Shown here piece by piece: positions 15,248 through 62,400 of a stretch of DNA of 64,000 nucleotides. The translations under genes and the position numbers were made by a program. Position 1 is the stretch's first letter. Every line of letters starts with the position of its first letter. The notes beneath the pieces were generated by a model. It was given only the letters and a program-made list of their open reading frames with translations, ran no database searches and was not told the DNA's origin. Source of the DNA: Daucus carota subsp. sativus (lineage: Eukaryota; Streptophyta; Magnoliopsida; Apiales; Apiaceae); assembly GCF_001625215.2 (NCBI RefSeq), contig NC_030381.2:42654689-42718688 (forward strand). Direction: 5' to 3'.

Positions 15248-15590
15248 TGTTGGAAGTTTGTCATTTTGAGCATAAATTTGAGTGAGGCTCGGCTACGTGT
15301 TCGTGGCGGGTTATGCTTTGATTATGTTCTCTTCCGAGAGAGCTTTCCAATGCATATTTATTCACTCAAAACGACTAAGGAATAGATGAGTTGTGATGAT
15401 CCAAAGTTGCTTCCTTGATAGTGGAAAATTGGAGAGTAAAGCTTGAATCCCACATTGATTCAATAAAGAGCGTTTAAAGGCTTTATATAGCAAGACACTT
15501 TGGTAGTGTCCAAAAGTGTTACTAGTGTATTTCTGCACCACCTACCTGCGCGCAGGGTGCAAATTGTGAGATGGTCCACCGTACTGTTTA
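15248..15590. other. Junction filler, unidentified
   Basis: This sequence follows the annexin breakpoint and has no similarity to either duplicated gene. It resembles retrotransposon-derived leader sequence (a CCCACATTG motif followed by a TATATAG stretch), but I see no paired LTR or coding domain. Confidence 0.35.
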
Positions 15591-16083
15591 TTTGTGCATA
15601 TTTTAACATAGTTGTTATCTGTTAATATTTAGTTTATTTGGTCTCTTATTGTATTTCTTTTTATAAATCTGAATAAAATTTACTCATTTAACTTTTCATG
15701 TATTTGTGCATATTTTAACATAGTTGTTATCTGTTAATATTTAGTTTATTTGGTCTCATATTGTATTTCTTTTTATAAATCTGAATAAAATTTACTCATT
15801 TAACTTTTCATGTAACTTTACTCATTTCTTACACAATTTCTTGGTTTTCGTGTCCCAACCATGGTGAGACGGGAGGAGTACTATATTTTCTACTTATCAA
15901 AGTTAAACTAAACGGGTAAGAGGGTATTTCTTTTTATAAATTTGAATAAAATTTACTCATTTAACTTTTCATGTAACTTTACTCATTTCTTACACAATTT
16001 CTTGGTCTTCGTGTCCCAACCATGGTGAGATGGGAGGAGTACTATATTTTCTACTTATCAAAGTTAAACTAAACGGGTAAGAG
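15591..16083. repeat. Compound tandem repeats of 112 bp and 161 bp
   Basis: A 112-bp unit beginning TTTGTGCATATTTTAACATAG occurs at 15591 and 15703. An overlapping unit of about 161 bp beginning GTATTTCTTTTTATAAAT occurs at 15763 and 15924 and ends at AAACGGGTAAGAG. The copies differ by a few bases only, so the amplification is recent. Confidence 0.85.
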
Positions 16084-25118: not shown

Positions 25119-25588
25119 GGGATTGTATTCGATTGAAATATAAAAAACAAAAAATTATTTGTAAAATTTGAGGGTATTTAATTGAGATTGTTTAAAATTC
25201 ATTAAAATCTTGAAATATTCGATTGAGATTTTAAATTATACTACAAAATCTGAAGGTATTTGATCAGGATTTTGAATTATGCTTAAACATCTGATGATAT
25301 TCAATTGAGATTGTTTAAAATCCATTAAAATATGATAATATTTAAATGTTGGTGGAATTTTTTGCATTTCATAAAATGATGGATTTTATGGGATTTCTCC
25401 ATGTATTTTAAGTCTTTTGAAATCCCACCAAAATCCATGAGATTTTGAAGCATTGTGCTTAAATCCTAAAAAATCTATATCAACTCTACGATGTTTGATC
25501 AATAATCCGCGCAAAATCAAAATAACATACAATTCATTAAAATCTATACATAAAAAATAACTCATTAAAATTTCAATTGAATACACCA
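25119..25588. mobile_element. MITE of the GGTGTATTC-GATTG family, copy 1
   Basis: The sequence from TGTATTCGATTGAAAT to ATTTCAATTGAATACACC has inverted ends. Its interior is made of repeated (GGTATTCGATTGAGATT / CATTAAAATC) motifs. It matches the element at 32519-32976 along its length. No target duplication could be assigned. Confidence 0.7.
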
Positions 25589-32518: not shown

Positions 32519-32976
32519 GGGTGTATTGGATTGATATTTTAAAGCATTTTTTTACATTCATGAAATCCGAGGGTATTCGATTGGGATTGTTTGAAATCCA
32601 TTAAAATCTTTAGGTATTCAAGTGAGATTTTAAATTATGCTACAAAATCTGGTGGTATTCGATTGAGATTCTAAATTATGCTTTAAAATCCAATGGTATT
32701 CAATTGGGATTGTTTAAAATCCATTAAAATCTGATGGTATTCAAATGCTGATGGATTTTTTTGGATTTCATAAAATGATGGATTTCATGGCATTCTTCGG
32801 TGTATTTTACGTTTTTTAAAATCCCACCAAATTCAATGGGATTTTGAAGCATTCTGGTTAAATCCTATCAACTCTGCGACATTTGATCAAGAATCCGCAC
32901 AAAATCAAAATCACATACAATCCATTAAAATCCATAGACTAAAAACAATCCATTAAAATCCCAATCGAATACACCC
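32519..32976. mobile_element. MITE of the GGTGTATTC-GATTG family, copy 2, in the F-box gene 5' flank
   Basis: About 458 bp from GGGTGTATTGGATTGATATT to AATCCCAATCGAATACACCC. Ends are inverted repeats, and the interior carries repeated CGATTGGGATTGTTT / CCATTAAAATC phrases in both orientations. It is the same family as 25119-25588. It lies only about 35 bp upstream of the longest F-box open frame. Confidence 0.8.
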
Positions 32977-47995: not shown

Positions 47996-50900
47996 CTATT
48001 GTGTTAAAAGAACACATTCAAGTTCAATCTCTAGCAATCCTCTTTCAACATTATCCAGCGTTAGTGTAATCGTTTGCTTCACTTTTCCATCTACTAGACT
48101 AATGTTACTGTCAAATACTAGAGTATTTTCTTTGCTTGCGATCAACTTTCCGAGCACCATCGACTCTCCAGATTTAACATTGTCAGCTGCTTTAGCGGCA
48201 GATACTAGTGGTCGAATGTCAATCTGAGCTTCTCCCATATAATCATCATACGTGAATGTGTCCTTGTCATATACACGCTACAAACCAATTCCATGTGAAT
48301 AAAACGATAATATCTTATCATCATAAATGCTAAAATAGGTATAATAATATTCAACTACATATCCAAGTCTCCGTTGCAAGAATATATATCGGCAATCTTG
48401 GTCGAAGAGAGAAGACAATTTTTAACACAACAACAAATCATGTAAAGCTACTATTGATATTCTAAAAATATATAAAACGACGATCTTACAAGTTATGGAT
48501 ATAAATTATTAATTATATATATACTCCATCACCTCAGTACGACATTGGTAATTAGATTCTAAAGTATTTTTTTTATGTATATGTGCATAATCCACTATTA
48601 CATGGTACAAATATCACAAAAGATGACAAGAACTAAGTATATAATACACACACACACACACGTGTACATATATATCAAGTGATAACTAATATCCATCATA
48701 TATACTTGATTGTCCATATAAGCTGGCTACCATCATATATTTTAACTATTGTCAAATTATGTAGAAATGATATGTTATTGTTAAAATTTCTATCTTAAAG
48801 ACATGCACCAATGCGTTGTTTACCAGCTTGAGAGGAGGAATATTTTCTGGAATTGATAACATAATCATGTCCTTCCATACAGGATTCAAACTGTTTTTAA
48901 CGGATTGTGTCTTCACTGACTGCAGCATATCAAACAAGAAGGTTCATTACTTTAATTATGCCTTTTTAATTCCACAAAATGATTTTATTAAAAAAAATGG
49001 AAAGAAGGCTTACCTGATTTCCCAGTGCAAGGATGACATAGGGATCACTAGACATTATATCTCGAACTGCTAGATTACTGCCTTTGACTATATTAACCTT
49101 TATTAGTCCTAGAAACTCAACCATACCAACCTGTAGAGCATATAAAGTACATGATGTTTACATAAAGTATCTATTAGATAAAAAATTGCATAAAAACTAT
49201 TGACATCAAATATTTATAATTATGGAGTGAAGTAGTGAGTTAAAAAAGTATATGCACTGTGAATAAATTATTTTGAAGGTAACATTTATTTAAGCCATAT
49301 GTGATAGGAATATTTTTTATTGATCTTATTTAAAATGGAACCTGGTAAATCATTAATCGATTACAGTAGTTACATAAGATACTCCATAGCATGTAATCAT
49401 TCTTCTACAATCACTATGAGATCATGCTAATAAGATTTAGAAGGGAAATATTTTTTGTTTAATCATAACATGACTTGTAAGGGCGTTAGTAAATATCGAA
49501 CGATCAATACATATACTATTGGAGAAATAAGAGTAATATTTGATGTTTTTCTCTAGGGTCTAATTTTAATCAATCAGTGTGTCCTACTCTTTAAGGCATG
49601 GGACAGGGTTAGACTTCATGGAATAGGGATAATATCTGATTTGTTTTCTTATTATCCAATATTGTTCTATCAGTATGTCCTACTATTAAGGTAACAGGAA
49701 AAGGTTAAGTTGCTTGTATAACAAGCAACAAGAACGTCCAATATTATTATAATGTTTGTTAAGGATTGAGTGATGATGGTGATTGTTTTCAAGTTCAATA
49801 GAGTTCTTAGTTACATTTGAATATGCATTCATTCAATGACAGTTGCATAGTTTACTTCTAGTAAAATTGGTTATATAGAACACAAATCAAATGGAATTTC
49901 GTGTATGTTTACACCTGAATCTTCAATGCAATTTGTACCCATGATAAGTTCATTATGAGTTCTTTCACTATAAATAGATACAAGTAACTCCATGTGAACT
50001 CTAATCAAAACCTATTCTGATCAAAGAATAACTTTTTTCTAGCATATATGAAGAAATTAATCATTGATGGTTAAAATGATTACCGTTGAATTGCTTTTCT
50101 TAGTGGACTTGCTTTCAGATTTTCTCCAACTATTGCGAATAACATAGCCAAGGCTATAACTTCGGTTGTTGCTATTCTTCTCAACTGAACAAGATCTGCT
50201 ACTTGATGGCAATGGATATGGTAAGGGGCAGTTAATCAATTCATCGGCTCTCAAAAATTGTTGGAGCTCATACTTTCTTCTGCATATATAATTGTTATTT
50301 ATTTAATATTTATAGTGTATGAGCATGTATTGATCATGTATCTAGCAAGATTAATAATTGTATTACCTGATGAAATCAGCTCTCTCCTCGATGGAAGAAT
50401 CTGGCTTTGGTTTCGTAAAGTTATCGGGAATGGATCCTTCATACTTGTAGTTTACAGCTGTATTTCCTCCCAACTCTTTTAGAGCGTTAACATCCGCATC
50501 TGTCCATTGATCTAGTTTTATGGATAAGATCTGACATATACATGATTAGTCACATTAATAAAGTATCAAATTATATTGCCTTGTTAAACTGACGTAACAG
50601 ACTGATTTATAGCAATACATAATACAATATGTAATATTTCCTTGATCTCGATATATTAAAAATCTAGTTTACAAAAATTCAGGTATTGATTTATTTATAA
50701 GTTTTTTATAACCATTTTTAAGTATTTCAAGGTTGTTTATATTATTAATAGATTGATGACCGGTGGAAATAAAGGGTATGAAAATAAATTTGATTCCATA
50801 TCATAAAAATTTGTTATAGTTTATCTAACATGCGAAACTATCAATGATTCATCATTGACTATATTATGCATGATTTGGACAATACTGTTAAGAACTTAAA

Positions 50901-53900
50901 AAAGTAAGTAACGAAAGACGATGTCATGTAAGTTGTACCTTTGATATATGCACCCCAAGACTTCTGTGTACTCCAGAACACTTAATACATATAAATGCTC
51001 CTATATTTGAAGATCTGGATCAGAAGATTAGATATAGTCATTACAAGAAATAAACCAACTCTAACATAAATTTTTGCTCTAGAGCTGTGCATCAAGGTAG
51101 CATAAGATATCATGACTTAATGTCATTATATATAATGGTGCTATTGTGAATCCTTGAAAGGTGGGAGGAGCAACTCGCATCTACTGAGTCCCTAAATAGT
51201 AGATTATTTTAGTATAATATATTAGACATTGGACGACGATATATCAGATGTGTATTTCATGAAAAACATAATTAGATATTACTTAACCCCATGGCACTAT
51301 GTCCATTACACTATGTTAGGTACTAATATTTTGATATGTTAATCAATGGTCACAATTATTTTATATCACTTTTGGTATTTAATTAATCCATATTTCTTTT
51401 GCATGCATGTAGTGAGAAAAAGTAAAAGATTACAAAGCATTCTAAATTCTAAGAAATTTTTTCTCTTCCAAATATATGTATGAGATAATAATGATTTTAT
51501 CTTAAATTATACTAACGTGATATACTTACATCCATTTTGGATCTGGTGTCCCACAATCTGCACAAAATTTATTGGCACCTTCCGATGACAATTTATCCAG
51601 TCTTTGTTGAGGACCTGATGATTACAAACTAAATCTCAGTAGAAGTAAAAATCTATGATAACATGACAATAATATCTTTAAGACATATGAAAACCATAGG
51701 GTATGGATATTGTGTTTTTCAATCTATACAAATATTAAAACACATATTAATTGAATAAATAGGTTAATTTACATCTTTTCAGAATAAGAAATAAATGTTT
51801 ATATGAAAAATTAGGTATATTCTAATTTTTATTGGTTTCATAATATTCTTAATTAGGTTTGACTATCAACTGAGAGGGTTCAACTTGTAAATGTCTAAGA
51901 TTCAATTCTTAGAGTTATTAACAAAAAATGTTGACGAAATAAATATATAATTTAATTAATAAATTAGGCACATATTTAAGACCATCACTTCATTTCTTAA
52001 AAATTTGAAACTCCAAATTAATTATTATTATTAAATATTTACAAAGTGATTGAGTTTAGTACAAAGATCAAAACAAGCTGATATATTGTTCATGGTTCAA
52101 AACACTTAAAACATGAATATGTCAACGATGCTTATAATTTCCTAATAAATAAAAAGAAAAAATTCCGACAAAAATGATCATATTATACAACATATACATT
52201 CTTACTTTCACCATGATTCTTGTGTCTTGTATTTTGATTAGTTTCAGAGTGTGCCATATCACGGGACTGGGAACCTGCAATGAGCAATTTTCATTTCTTA
52301 GTGGTTCTAAACTCCTAATTAATTATTATTATATCTTTACAAAGTGAGTGGGTTGAGTGTGAAGATTAAAACAATGCTAGTATATTGTTCATGGTTGAAA
52401 ACACTTAAAACATCAACATATCAACTATGCATAGAATTTCCTTAAAATATAAAAAAAAAATTATGATAAAAATGGTCATATCATACAACATATACATTCT
52501 TACTTTCACCGTGATTCTTATGGCTTGTATTCTGATTGGTTTTAGATTGTACCATAACACGACGCTGGGAACCTACAATCAACACACTTCATATCTTAAT
52601 GGTTCTAAACTTCTAATTAATTATTACAAATCTCTACAAAAAGAGCGGGTTTAATGTAAAGATCAAAACAATGCTAATATATTGTTCATTGTTCAAAACA
52701 CTTAAAACAAAGATGCCTAAAATATTCGTATAAAATGATATAATTTTTTTTTGACAAAAATGTTCATATTGTACAACATATACATTCTTACTTTCACAAT
52801 GATTCTTGCGTCTTGTATATTGATTGGTTTCAGAGTGCACAATATCACGGGGCCGAGAACCTACAATTAGCAATCGTAAAATCAATTAATTAATTGTAAT
52901 TTACATTATTATATTTTACAAGCAATAAATATAGTATGATTCCTAATATTGTAACTCTTGGCATTATATTTAGCAATAATTAATAAGTATACTTTGATTT
53001 TTCATACGAACAAAGAGAGAGTTTTTGAATATCATTACAGAAACAAGCTTAATTTAAAATTTTAGAATCATAAATAAGAGGTTATGACTCTCAACAAATC
53101 TAATATAATTACAACAGTAACATTATAATATGTTATCTTAACCATTACGCCTATCATATAAAACAAAGCACCAAACTTATGGTGGTCATCGACTCGACAA
53201 GGCCAAGTTAGTAAGTATTGAGCTTATGATATGTTTGGTAACTTGAATTTCATTTGAAAATTTGAATTTGATCAAATGGTATGTTTAGAAGCAAAAGAAG
53301 TTGGATTTGGATTTCATTTGAAATCTATAACATTCAAATACTGGTATAAAGTTTAGAATTTGAAATGACACCTTAAATCATGTTAATTGAAATCCAAAAT
53401 TTGAAATAAAATACATGTTACCAAACATAATCCTACATTAGTTAAATTTATAAAAAAAAAGGTGTAAGAACAATAAACTTTAAACATCTCCATCTCCAAA
53501 GCTAATAGGTCAAATGCTTATGTATAATTAGAAACACAGTTAGCATGAGACATGGTTAGTATCAGACAATATATTACTTATACCATGAATTCTAAAATAT
53601 CTTTGTCATGTTATATGAATTAGGAAAAATGTATTCGTAGTCTAGCCTCATTGTGGAAGGTCTGGAGGTGTTTGCTGCCACTTATATCACTTTGTGTTCA
53701 ACTCCTGCGGCCTACCACCTTCTTTTATATACTTTTGTTTTGTTTTTCTTCTTCAATATTTTATGTTTAACATATATACGTAGGTTTACATACTAGCTAG
53801 TTTACTCATAATTTAGTAATTTATTTTTGATTTTATGTGACACAAACTTTTTCTTATATGTTTTTGTCTTCTGAACTAAAAATCCTAGATTCAGCTATAA

Positions 53901-54264
53901 TAGTTGCCTATTATAATTTTGTTATATTTTAGCCTTTTCCAATAAATATATTTTATGGCTATAAATATATGAAATTGTACTAAAGAGTTTCTTCGTTCGA
54001 CAAATATAATCAACAAAATATAGTTCATAGTTGTATATGTTTTACCAATGTGGTAGAAGTTTGATGCGCTACAATGCTAACATAAATGTCACCTATTTGT
54101 CACATAAATTATTTAGTTAAGAATTTTTGCATGCTGGAATGTACATTTACAAAAAAAACTTGCAACTACAAATAAATCTAAAGCAATGCAGATTTGACAA
54201 GCTCAGAATTAGAGACACAACTACCTGAAACATGTGCATCCATTCTTTGTTTCTGGGCAGACAT
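47996..54264 (-). CDS. ArfGAP-C2 protein, AGD12/AGD13 type, with three mini-exon repeats
   Basis: Exons on the minus strand: 54225-54264, 52798-52860, 52510-52572, 52212-52274, 51530-51614, 50939-51014, 50367-50530, 50084-50279, 49014-49130, 48824-48919 and 47996-48277. All join in frame to 414 residues. The ArfGAP zinc finger is complete (CADC-x16-CIKC), with the arginine finger in [10 protein letters not shown] linker follows, then a C2 domain starting [39 protein letters not shown] with NPVWKD and [16 protein letters not shown]. It stimulates GTP hydrolysis by Arf GTPases at membranes; C2 binds phospholipid with Ca2+. Arabidopsis relatives are about 336 residues. The extra length is mainly the three 21-residue mini-exon products before the zinc finger. 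Confidence 0.9.
52010..52870 (-). repeat. Three tandem units of about 290-300 bp, each with a 63-nt mini-exon
   Basis: Exon-to-exon spacing is 298 and 288 bp. Each unit contains the same intron text (ATATTGTTCATGGTTCAAAAC, ACAACATATACATTCTTACTTTCAC) and one 63-nt exon with AG acceptor and GT donor. Products read [40 protein letters not shown] and [20 protein letters not shown]. All exons are phase 1-1. Confidence 0.9.
53225..53425. mobile_element. Small MITE with ATGTTTGGTAAC ends, in ArfGAP gene intron 1
   Basis: TATGTTTGGTAACTTGAATTTCATTTG at the left and TACATGTTACCAAACATAATCC at the right form inverted ends, with GAATTTCATTTGAAA phrases inside. About 200 bp. The target duplication was not resolved. 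Confidence 0.55.
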
Positions 54265-56422: not shown

Positions 56423-59400
56423 ATGGACGATAATTTAAGCACGAATCATAAATTATGCGGTTATTTATGCACAATTCTCCAAACGGACCCCCCAATTGCA
56501 CCCAACCTGATCTCCACCACCTGCGAAATATTCGCTGAAGGGTCAGAAACCGGATTTATATGCGAAAACGGCACCGTTTTGTCGACGATTAACGGGGAAA
56601 CCGAGTATGCGGTGGGGGAAGGGAGCAATACGGCGTCGTCGTCGAGGAAGAAGTGGAGTGGGATAGGGTTAGTGAATGGGAGTATAAGTGTGGTGAACCA
56701 GTTGTATGCGTTGGTGAGTCACAAGTGTTTGAGTATTGTTTCGAAAGTCGTTGAGGTTGTTGAGGTGGTTGGGAAGGCGGTTAGGGTTGTTGTGTTGGTT
56801 GATGTTTATTTGCCTATTCAGTTGTGGTCTGGTTGGCAGTTTCCGAGGTCTGCCACAGTTGCTGCTGCGCTTTGCCGACATTTGAGGTGTGTCAGTTGCT
56901 TCTCCTTTTGCGATAATTTTTCGTGTTGTAGCTACATTGTGAGTTGTGATATGATGAGAGCTGATACACGTCATTAATTTGTTAGTATATGACCCTGTTT
57001 CGTTATTATGAATAATGATAAGAGAATTAAGAGCTGAGAGCACACATACTTTTAATGTCTTCATGAAAAAGGAACTTTAGTGTAAGGTTGTGAATTAGTG
57101 TGAACGCCATATGCAATCAGCTTGGGTTGAAATGTTAGAGCTCCCATTGTTATATTATAAAATCTGAAGGCTTCATGCTTACTTTAAATTTTTTATAGGA
57201 AGTACCATACAAGTATTTGAGCTATTGGGAATATTTATCTTCTATTGAACTTAATTCCATTGTTTTTGTAATATCTTTATTTATTTTTATATAATTGCAT
57301 TGTTGGAGTAGTCTTTATATTGATTTTGTGGTAAAAATAGTTGAAGGATATTTTTATATTTTTAGCTGTAATTGGGAGGCTAGAAGGTCGTTGCTTCAGC
57401 TTGGCAATACAGATGATCAACGTAGTGATAATATCTGGAATATTTCAGACTGTCATGTACTTGGTTGTAAGCTACAATGTGTTGCACCCGGGACTTCTAA
57501 GAAAAAGCTTTTTGAACTTCATGACATATTCATGAGCTTGCCTAGTCTCTCCATGAAAGGAGGTAGCGACCTTTCAAGAGTATATCCAGCAGATGATACT
57601 TCTGACTCTGGTATTTGGGATGTCTCTGATGATGTTTTGATCAATATATTTGCTACATTGGGACCAATTGAGCTTCTTAGAGTTTCGGCTACCTGCCGCC
57701 ATTTAAGGTCTTTGGCAGCTTCTATTATGCCATGTATGAAACTTAAACTTTTCCCTCATCAACATGCAGCAATTGAGTGGATGATGCAGCGCGAAAAGGA
57801 CTCTGAGGTGCTGCCACACCCTCTGTATTTAGATTTGGTAACTGAGGATGGATTCACTTTCTATGTAAATGTGGTATCTGGTGAAATAGTCGCTAACATA
57901 AAACCTGTATTCAGAGATTTTCGTGGTGGAATGTTCTGTGATGAACCGGGATTGGGTAAGACCATAACTGCCCTTTCTCTTATTTTGAAGGCACAAGGAA
58001 CACTGGCCCTCCCTCCTGACGGCGCAGAGGTCATATGGTGTACACATAATGGTAAGCAGGGATGTGGATATTACGAGATCAGTGCTGATAAATTGGCAAG
58101 TGGCCAAGCTTTGCCAACTACAAGAGTTGTTGGCCAAACACCACGCAGAGGACAATTTCATCTAGATGATTCACAGGAGAAGCTTGTACACTCCGCAAAG
58201 AGAACTAGAGTCATGGGTTCTGCCAAAATTGTTGCAGAGTCTGCTAATAAGTTGTCCCCTCACGAGGAGGCTGGATCACCTCAAGCTGCATGTGTGGCCC
58301 ATTGCAGTAGTAAGCAGAGTAGATCAAAGAAAAATCTTTTGGATGCATTTGATGAAGAATCTGATTATAATACAGGCACTGCAAGAAGAAGCTCGCGAAA
58401 GAGAAGGCATCCATCAAATTGGCCATTTTACAGCTCCTTAGAGAAAGATAGCTCTTCAGATGTGTCATCTTACCGCAGAAAGAGGGGTAATAAGATCACT
58501 AACGATTCTGACAATAAACAAACTTGGATTCAGTGTGATGCGTGCAGAAAGTGGAGGAAACTTACAGAATTAGATGCTGCTAAAACTACAACTGCATGGT
58601 TTTGTAGCATGAACAGTGATACTTTTCACCAGAATTGCCTTGTTCCAGAAGAAATTTGGGATGCTCGCCAAAAATTAACATCTTTACCTGGATTTCACAC
58701 TAAAGGAAAATCTGGAGGGGAAGAGGAAAATATCTCATTCTTCATCACCGTGCTTAGGGAGCATTCTGCCCTCATTGATTCAGTAACCAAAAAGGCATTA
58801 ACTTGGTTGGCTAAGCTCTCAGCTGACAAACTTTTGGAAATGGAAACAGTAGGATTGCTGCAGCCAGTCATGCAACCACAAGCAGCGCGCCGCGGAAATA
58901 TCCATCAGTTTCACAGAGTGTTTAAAGCATTTGGACTTATAAAGAGAGAAAAAGAGGGGACTACAAAATGGTACTACCCAAGAACTGTCTCAAACATGGA
59001 TTTTGATGTAGCTGCCCTCAGAATTGCTTTATGCGAGCCATGGGACTCAATAATGTTATATTTGTCGAAGGCAACTCTTATCGTCGTTCCTTCGAATCTA
59101 GTTGATCACTGGAATACTCAAATTCAGAAGCATGTCAGACCTGGTCAATTGCGTGTTTATATCTGGACCGACCACAAAAAGCCTCTTGCCCACAACCTGG
59201 CCTGGGACTATGACATTGTTCTGACTACATTCAATCGTTTAAGTGCTGAGTGGAATCCTCATAAGAGAAGTGTGTTGATGCAAGTTCATTGGCTCAGGGT
59301 TATATTTGACGAAGGTCACACCCTTGGCTCGAGTCTTAACTTGACGAACAAGCTGCAAATGTCCATTTCATTGACAGCTACAAGTAGGTGGCTATTAACA

Positions 59401-62400
59401 GGAACACCAACACCCAACACTCCAAACAGTCAACTGTCTAATCTTCAACCTATGCTTAAGTTCCTTCGTGAAGAAGTGTATGGACAGAATCAGAAGTTAT
59501 GGGAAAATGGTATTCTCAGGCCGTTTGAGGCCGGAATGGAAGAAGGTAGGTTACGTTTACTGCATATGCTTCAAAGATGTATGATAAGTGCAAGAAAAGC
59601 AGATTTAAAATCAATTCCTCCTTGCATCAAGAAAGTGACATTTGTGGACTTTACTGAAGAACATGGGAGGAGTTACAATGAACTGGTTGTTACAGTGAGG
59701 CGTAACATATTACTGGCTGATTGGAATGATCCTTCTCATGTTGAGAGTTTACTGAACCCAAAGCAATGGAAGTTCCGAAGTACTACTATAAAAAATGTCC
59801 GATTGTCTTGCTGTGTTGCTGGTCATATAAAAGTATCTGATGCTGGGGGAGACATTCAAGAAACTATGGACCTGCTAGTTGAAAATGGAATGGACCCTTC
59901 TTCGGAGGAATATGCTTTTATTAGATATAATATTCTGCATGGTGGCAATTGTATGCGGTAAGATGACCATGATATACCATATGCAATCTGATTATGATTT
60001 ACTGTCAGAATATATACTGATTCCTTTTAACTTTTGTAGGTGCAACGAGTGGTGCCGATTGCCTGTCATTACACCATGCAGGCATCTCTTATGCCTTGAG
60101 TGTGTAGCTTTGAACAGTGAGAGGTGTACATATCCTGGATGTGACAACTTTTATGAGATGCAGAGTCCTGAAATATTAACCCGGCCAGAAAACCCCAACC
60201 CGAAGTGGCCTGTTCCGAAAGATTTGATTGAGTTGCAGCCGTCATATAAGCAGGCATGACTTGTTGCTAGTATACGTAAAGTTCTGTCTTTTGAGTGTCC
60301 TCTAATAATCTGTTTTACATTTCATAATGTTCTTCTTGTAGGATGATTGGCACCCTGATTGGCAATCAACTTCTAGCAGCAAAGTAAATTATCTAGTGCA
60401 TCGATTGAAAGAACTGCTGGGAGGTAATCAAAACATTAGCTGCCCTATTAATGGAGGGGTTGATCTGAAGCAAGTCTCTGAAACTACCTCTTGTTCTGAA
60501 CCAAGCAATGAGTCTAACGTAGCACCTTCTGAGAAGATTATCATATTTTCTCAATTTCTTGAGCATATACACGTCATTGCACTGCAGGTAACACTTAAAT
60601 TACTGTGAATTCTAAACAGGAGAATTTATTCTTTTATGTGCATTATGCAATGATAACTTATTGAGGTCCGTCTTTTTTTACCAGCTTACGATTGCTGGTA
60701 TCAAATTTGCTAGCATGTATAGTCCAATGCATTCTAGCAACAAGGTGAGAATTTGGCTTATCTCAGTTCTTCTGAAAATAACTTCTTCTGTTATAGTCTA
60801 AAAAATAATTTTCTTTAATCATATAGATGAAATCCCTGACGACCTTCCAGCACGACCCGGACTGCATAGCATTACTGATGGATGGAAGTGCAGCATTAGG
60901 TCTTGATTTGAGCTTTGTAACACATGTGTTTTTGATGGAACCAATATGGGACAAGAGGTAATAGATCTATAAACGGTTTTTTGACTAGAATATACTAGAT
61001 TGTCAAATTTGTGAAACTACCTATGTCTCTACTATATCCTTACAGAATTTTCCTCTGCTATATTTGTGCTGTTAGTTGTTAATTATAGGTAGAGCAACTG
61101 TCTCTGTCCTGACTAAACAAATAAATAATTATGATACTCAACTAAGCAAATTAAAGATATAAATTAAGCGACAATAATAAATTAAATGTAGATTATCATA
61201 CCATTAGATCTGTATTTCAAGGGTTGGGATTGAAACCTGTTTTTTTAAGTATCCGCTATAATTTTCCGCGGATAGGGAAAGTTCCTATCCGCGGAAATTA
61301 TCCGCGGATAGGGACTTTCCCTATGTCCCTATCCGCGGAAAATTATAGCGGATACTTAAAAAAACAAAGTTTTAATCTGGACCCTTGAAATAGAGATCCG
61401 ACGGCCCTGGAAGTGTGTGTCAGGGACCAGGACCCTATGCACTATTAATCCATATCTGCACACTGTTGAACTGATAATTTTTTTTATTGAAATGAATATT
61501 TAGTTGCACTTATTTTATGGTGTATAAAATAAAGGATAGGAACAAGTAATATCATCTTGGATAAAGGGACCGATTCACGTACAGAAAAAATGAAGCTTAC
61601 AAACTTACAGTGTTGAATGGATGCCGCTACTCTAAAACGATCATGGTTTTAGCAAGTAGAGAGGAAGGTAGAGAATTCTGCAATACTTCATCTGCCAGTA
61701 AAGCTAGTGAGATAACACAGAAGATAAATTATAAGCACGTATTCTTAAAAGTTACACAGTAGGCATACTCTTTTTTCTTCTCCCTTTTCTTTTCTGTCGT
61801 TACTTATGATGGTGACTCCAACTCTATCACTTTTTCTGTATGCTAAGAATGAACCACTTAATTGTCTGACATTTATAGAATGACTCGTACTACACCATAG
61901 TTTTAATTGCAAATTTAGGATCTGGAATTGATTTGTACATTTGCCTATATTTGTGCCGTTGGCTGTTAATTATTGAGAATAGTACTTCTACCTCGAAGTT
62001 CACTTTTGAACTTTAGTAATAATACATATATTTGTTCAAACACTGTCAGCATGGAAGAGCAAGTGATTAGTCGTGCTCACAGGATGGGTGCTACACGTCC
62101 TATTCAAGTTGAAACGTTGGCTATGAATGGTACAATTGAAGAGCAAATGTTGAATTTTTTACAGGTATTCATAACTTGTTTATATTGTCGTTTTAGGAAC
62201 CCGAGAAAAAAATTCTAATTATCTCTTAATTAGTTATAGTTAATATCTGAGTACTCAAGATGTCTTTACTTTCTTCAGTAGCCAAGTCTATTAACATTTT
62301 AGGTATATGTTTTGATGGCAGAAGTTTATGACCTTTGTTTATACATTGATGCTGTGTATTTGTATGTGTTTTAGCTAATAGAATTTATTTTTTTGTTAAA

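Follow-up and report, generated by a model that had tools for sequence, protein, structure and literature searches.

Tandem exon duplication was reportedly put forward by Kondrashov and Koonin in 2001 as an origin of alternative splicing. Removal of tandem-repeat units through alternative splicing is described for Arabidopsis, rice, and maize, where the units are Pfam domains (PMC2674458). Plant ArfGAP-C2 proteins of the AGD11/AGD12 (ZAC) class carry an N-terminal ArfGAP zinc finger, a linker, and a C-terminal C2 domain. Maize AGAP is a protein of 385 residues whose ArfGAP domain starts at residue 50, behind a long N-terminal segment (PMC8533723), and binding of phosphatidylinositol 3-monophosphate is reported for the N-terminal region of ZAC/AGD12 (PMC4140167).

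Here we analyze a 64,000-nt stretch of the Daucus carota subsp. sativus genome (the window), which contains a gene with the same order of zinc finger, linker, and C2 domain. It departs from the AGD11/AGD12 class in having an intron 1 with three candidate exons that repeat one another, whose peptides had no tblastn match better than E 0.13 in five further ArfGAP-C2 loci of its own genome (L062–L066). Neither the maize AGAP report nor the ZAC report assigns a function to these repeats; among the openly licensed PMC papers listed, titles and abstract openings yielded no repeated N-terminal exons in AGD11/12 and relatives, and those on exon duplication in plants were of a general kind. We consider it likely, judging from the sequence, that the repeats reflect recent tandem duplication of an additive, in-frame exon that would encode a passive spacer under weak or relaxed constraint. 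As in other tandem exon duplications, exon and intron occur together in tandem, the exons are frame-neutral, and splice-site sequences are kept in each copy. The window exons differ from the typical case in being additive and in probably encoding a spacer rather than a variant of a fold.

Results

The gene runs from 54264 to 47996 on the minus strand. It is intact without the repeats: the basic model, which contains no mini-exons, comprises eight coding exons with GT-AG introns and specifies 351 codons plus a stop. Its exons are as follows, a slash marking the splice junction.

54225–54264, minus strand: coding exon 1 (gene model), 13 residues plus the G of the next codon, donor CAG/GTAGTT
51530–51614, minus strand: exon 2 of the basic model, in which the ArfGAP zinc-finger domain begins (GPQQRLDKL...)
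50939–51014, minus strand: ArfGAP exon (gene model), 26 residues
50367–50530, minus strand: ArfGAP exon (gene model)
50084–50279, minus strand: exon that completes the ArfGAP region and encodes the linker (gene model)
49014–49130, minus strand: C2-domain exon (gene model and domain matches)
48824–48919, minus strand: C2-domain exon (gene model and structure matches)
47996–48277, minus strand: final coding exon, with C2-domain sequence and the stop codon (gene model and domain matches)

Domain and structure matches bear out the earlier note's claim of an ArfGAP-C2 gene, and the predicted product is a member of the AGD11/AGD12 (ZAC) class. One exon exceeds the Pfam ArfGap cut-off of 28.7 bits (38.4 bits), and two others fall below it when taken alone (26.4 and 27.8 bits); single exons matched Pfam C2 at 16 and 16.8 bits, under the 22-bit cut-off. 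Among the best 60 of 81 structure matches, the spliced protein matched the SMAP1 ArfGAP domain (E 2.9e-32), and residues 193–347 matched C2-domain structures (best E 1.7e-38). Searching the genome (441 Mb in 11 contigs, the window lying on contig 1) placed the protein closest to L062 and L063, with 67–72% identity, and at 49–51% identity to L064–L066. We label the latter three AGD12-type, the assignment of the two groups to AGD11 and AGD12 being provisional. The start codon and leader in exon 1 can be aligned with L062 and, loosely, with L063. The window also holds a large ORF (57295–59961) whose domains are SNF2-related, CW zinc finger, and F-box.

Intron 1 spans 2,610 nt and contains three units arranged head to tail. 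In each of them a short acceptor region precedes an open stretch, and about 220 nt of AT-rich intron follow. The spacing of 288 nt (A–B) and 298 nt (B–C) agrees with the three tandem units of about 290 bp described earlier, and Tandem Repeats Finder reports an array at 52008–52875 (score 1040). The introns between successive mini-exon copies measure 219 and 229 nt.

51989–52875, minus strand: tandem array of three units, each with about 15 nt of acceptor region, the exon, and the downstream intron
52792–52860, minus strand: mini-exon A, 69 nt, phase 1-1, first of 34 intron 1 candidates
52504–52572, minus strand: mini-exon B, 69 nt, phase 1-1, third of 34
52206–52274, minus strand: mini-exon C, 69 nt, phase 1-1, second of 34

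The distinctiveness ascribed to the repeat holds within this genome, where it was found at these three places only. A DNA search with the unit, by a method that skips very common words, returned three matches, all of them the window copies, and the same was true of the mini-exon peptides (3/3). As a control, the 210-nt inverted-repeat element of intron 1 gave many genomic copies with the same tool. With no second genomic site found by DNA or by peptide, a transposable-element origin of the unit is rejected, and the array represents local tandem duplication rather than a transposon family.

The inverted-repeat element itself (53230–53429) is MITE-like, with 40-nt arms that are 85% complementary (TATGTTTGGTAAC...GTTACCAAACATA). 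A first look genome-wide gave 736 candidates, 40 of which were scored; besides its own copy, the long matches were 80–88% identical. The window contains further repeats: two separate arrays with a 41-nt period (25181–25342 and 32563–32744; 4.0 and 4.4 copies), the AT-rich consensus units of which appear similar on visual inspection, and near-perfect duplications measuring 112 and 161 nt (15589–16083; 99% and 98% matches), which overlap and are probably recent.

All three mini-exon copies have the acceptor AG/GTTC, an open frame, phase 1-1, and the terminal sequence GTGAAA/GTAAGA. The earlier note was correct in describing symmetric exons with intact AG and GT in every copy, and its length of 63 nt corresponds to a cut ahead of GTGAAA; a cut ahead of GTAAGA gives 69 nt. 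Scored with plant splice-site matrices, which are rough and carry no training on this genome, AAA/GTAAGA ranks joint 6th among the 344 GTs of the gene and outscores three of its seven other donors, whereas the 63-nt donor comes 47th in copy C, 65th in copy B, and 174th in copy A. The 63-nt donor was therefore rejected as the main site, GTAAGA six bases downstream being far stronger in all three copies. Given this far better donor, the mini-exons are most likely 69 nt long, encoding 23 residues per repeat. Both versions are phase 1-1, so alternating use of the two donors would merely add or drop two residues.

Each repeat is hydrophilic, as proposed, with a mean hydropathy of −1.8 to −2.3. The description of the repeats as basic fits copies A and B (net charge +2 and +3) and fails for copy C (net charge 0). 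The first residue of each repeat depends on the exon joined upstream. Copy B is the most altered within the exon, departing from the consensus at 9 of 73 nt, and has the lowest-scoring acceptor of the three. A Pfam scan of copy A within its ORF gave a single sub-threshold match (E 0.19), which lies outside the repeat. Joint inclusion of the 69-nt symmetric exons does not break the frame; as they are phase 1-1 and a multiple of three in length, a mutually exclusive choice among them is unnecessary. As far as the reading frame goes, transcripts with zero to three repeats would be possible.

The exon-like signals in the array might be relics or coincidences within a neutral intronic tandem duplication, with the normal mRNA skipping all copies. 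We regard this as unlikely, for several signals weigh against it. We scanned intron 1 for open, symmetric, phase-1 exons, scoring acceptor, donor, and G+C, and among the resulting 34 candidates the three mini-exons took ranks 1–3. Of 1,000 dinucleotide-shuffled versions of the intron, 1.1% reached the best score (p 0.011 for the best copy), 1.6% the second, and 6.6% the third. The G+C content of the mini-exons (0.41–0.42) is exon-like, compared with 0.34–0.42 in the six of eight coding exons measured and 0.22–0.25 in the unit introns; G+C of at least 0.405 occurs in 3.8% of 3,505 overlapping intron 69-mers. The longest run invariant across the copies measures 26 nt, 6 at the end of the exon and 20 at the start of the intron (p 0.0055 by permutation), and such a run spanning AAA/GTAAGA is expected if that donor is in use. 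Two observations speak for neutrality: the divergence and codon pattern of the copies, presented below, and the paralog L062, which shows no such exon, so that proteins of this type do not need it to be produced. RNA folding energies around the mini-exons were not better than those of shuffles (z 0.55, 0.78, and 2.04), giving no sign of a structure-based splicing switch at the mini-exons themselves.

L062, on contig 6, is the closest paralog. Its intron 1 measures 783 nt, and the same scan found no comparable exon there, only two open symmetric candidates, both of 24 nt (best score 4.89). The unit introns diverge by 0.18–0.24, whereas dS is 0.83 to L062 and 1.44 to L063; because copy divergence is below the dS of 0.83, the duplications are younger than the split from L062.

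We measured divergence among the copies as changes from their majority consensus. The exon set included the splice dinucleotides; for the intron count we set aside 6 alignment columns at the start and 20 at the end, any column with a gap, and those in which all three copies differ, this last exclusion pulling the intron figure down somewhat. Change per site was 19/219 (0.087) in the exons and 51/555 (0.092) in the introns. Pairwise, the exons differ at 16, 10, and 12 of 69 positions, and the introns, with all-three-different columns kept, at 47/217, 51/214, and 41/224, for an overall divergence of 0.18 versus 0.21. Invariant columns are little different in proportion (50/69 in the exon and 127/192 in the intron beyond the donor). 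Codon changes come close to what would be expected without constraint, with 12 nonsynonymous codons observed and 13.2 expected. In simulations without constraint, all three copies lack a stop with probability 0.43; this falls to 0.15 when intact AG and GT are also demanded, and to 0.04 when the nonsynonymous count is added.

Such about equal divergence of exon and intron is a result that the earlier note had itself named as refuting, and its idea of a selected modular linker is therefore not supported. These data do not show that the repeat came under selection once duplicated, and exon use is still compatible with them. A selected modular spacer, in which splicing sets the repeat number and so tunes ArfGAP membrane binding or reach, would fit the symmetric phase that makes zero to three repeats frame-neutral, the NG86 dN/dS values between copies (0.36, 0.58, and 0.28, based on 10 to 16 differences per pair), and the binding of phosphatidylinositol 3-monophosphate reported for the ZAC/AGD12 N-terminal region (PMC4140167). 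However, exon and intron rates show no clear difference, the repeat has no known function, and the ZAC binding segment is not established as its homolog. We consider this explanation very unlikely.

In the second close paralog, L063 (contig 1, 28.2 Mb), intron 1 measures 1,639 nt and holds 79 open symmetric candidates. The highest-scoring (9.13) is a predicted exon, GPCLYDLLRLETNLPPKSCCRQSTEEIDLQPKQSCRLSTEETPS, which occurs once in the genome and contains two internal 45-nt copies with 84% identity.

L063:4395–4526, minus strand: candidate exon from the intron 1 scan, 132 nt, phase 1-1

The mini-exon could be an old exon of the class, homologous to this L063 candidate, lost in L062 and later triplicated here. 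Such a history is compatible with recent triplication, and both exons are phase 1-1 within the same intron. When the sequences are anchored at the acceptor, the L063 exon and copies A and C have DxxxxETN in common, a match that 0.55% of 2,007 coding windows equal or exceed, and anchored shuffles give p 0.0001–0.0076 by residue and 0.0006–0.013 by base, the anchor having been chosen after looking. Against homology, copy B is unremarkable (6.1% of the 2,007 windows score as high), and free local alignment gave p 0.029–0.69 against shuffles. A tblastn search of the five ArfGAP-C2 loci (L062–L066) with the three mini-exon peptides found nothing better than E 0.13; the L063 exon was absent from the best 30 matches listed, and nothing convincing appeared in L064–L066. 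Intron 1 DNA gave only short, weak matches to the L062 and L063 introns (20–81 nt, best E 0.003). The L063 exon is itself a prediction with a low donor score (1.16), and a separate 45-nt candidate in the same intron rivals it (8.31 versus 9.13). Motif strings of this exon were not found in the openly licensed PMC literature. On balance, this history of an old exon appears unlikely.

One paralog has tripled a 69-nt exon, and another has an unrelated or distantly related 132-nt candidate with an internal 45-nt duplication. On these grounds, the hinge before the ArfGAP domain might, in this gene class, be especially prone to being lengthened by symmetric phase-1 exons, the repeat number set by splicing providing an adjustable spacer or membrane-binding tail; this generalization strikes us as quite improbable.

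Discussion

The mini-exons are probably real exons that arose through recent tandem exon duplication. We propose that intron 1 originally held one symmetric phase 1-1 exon, and that two tandem duplications after the split from L062 copied it along with its acceptor region and the following intron. The spliceosome would probably recognize each copy at AG/GTTC and AAA/GTAAGA, with inclusion varying according to splice-site strength. We infer that mRNAs could then carry zero to three 69-nt exons with the frame intact, placing as many as 69 additional residues ahead of the ArfGAP zinc finger (from 351 to 420). Constraint on the repeats would be weak or relaxed, and they would most likely serve as a spacer that is passive and probably disordered. 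The earlier note's observation is confirmed in part, and its interpretation likewise finds partial support.

Skipping of repeat units, as proposed here, would parallel the systems of Arabidopsis, rice, and maize; those units are Pfam domains, whereas the window repeat, as scanned in copy A, has no Pfam match above threshold (PMC2674458).

If the mini-exons are spliced, they would provide a clean and recent case of a plant gene with an additively triplicated exon, in which the number of copies, the strength of the splice sites, and the length of the protein can be traced separately, and they would indicate that ArfGAP-C2 proteins can accommodate large changes in the length of their N-terminal hinge. 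If they are unspliced, the locus would show that convincing exon-like arrays can persist within introns.
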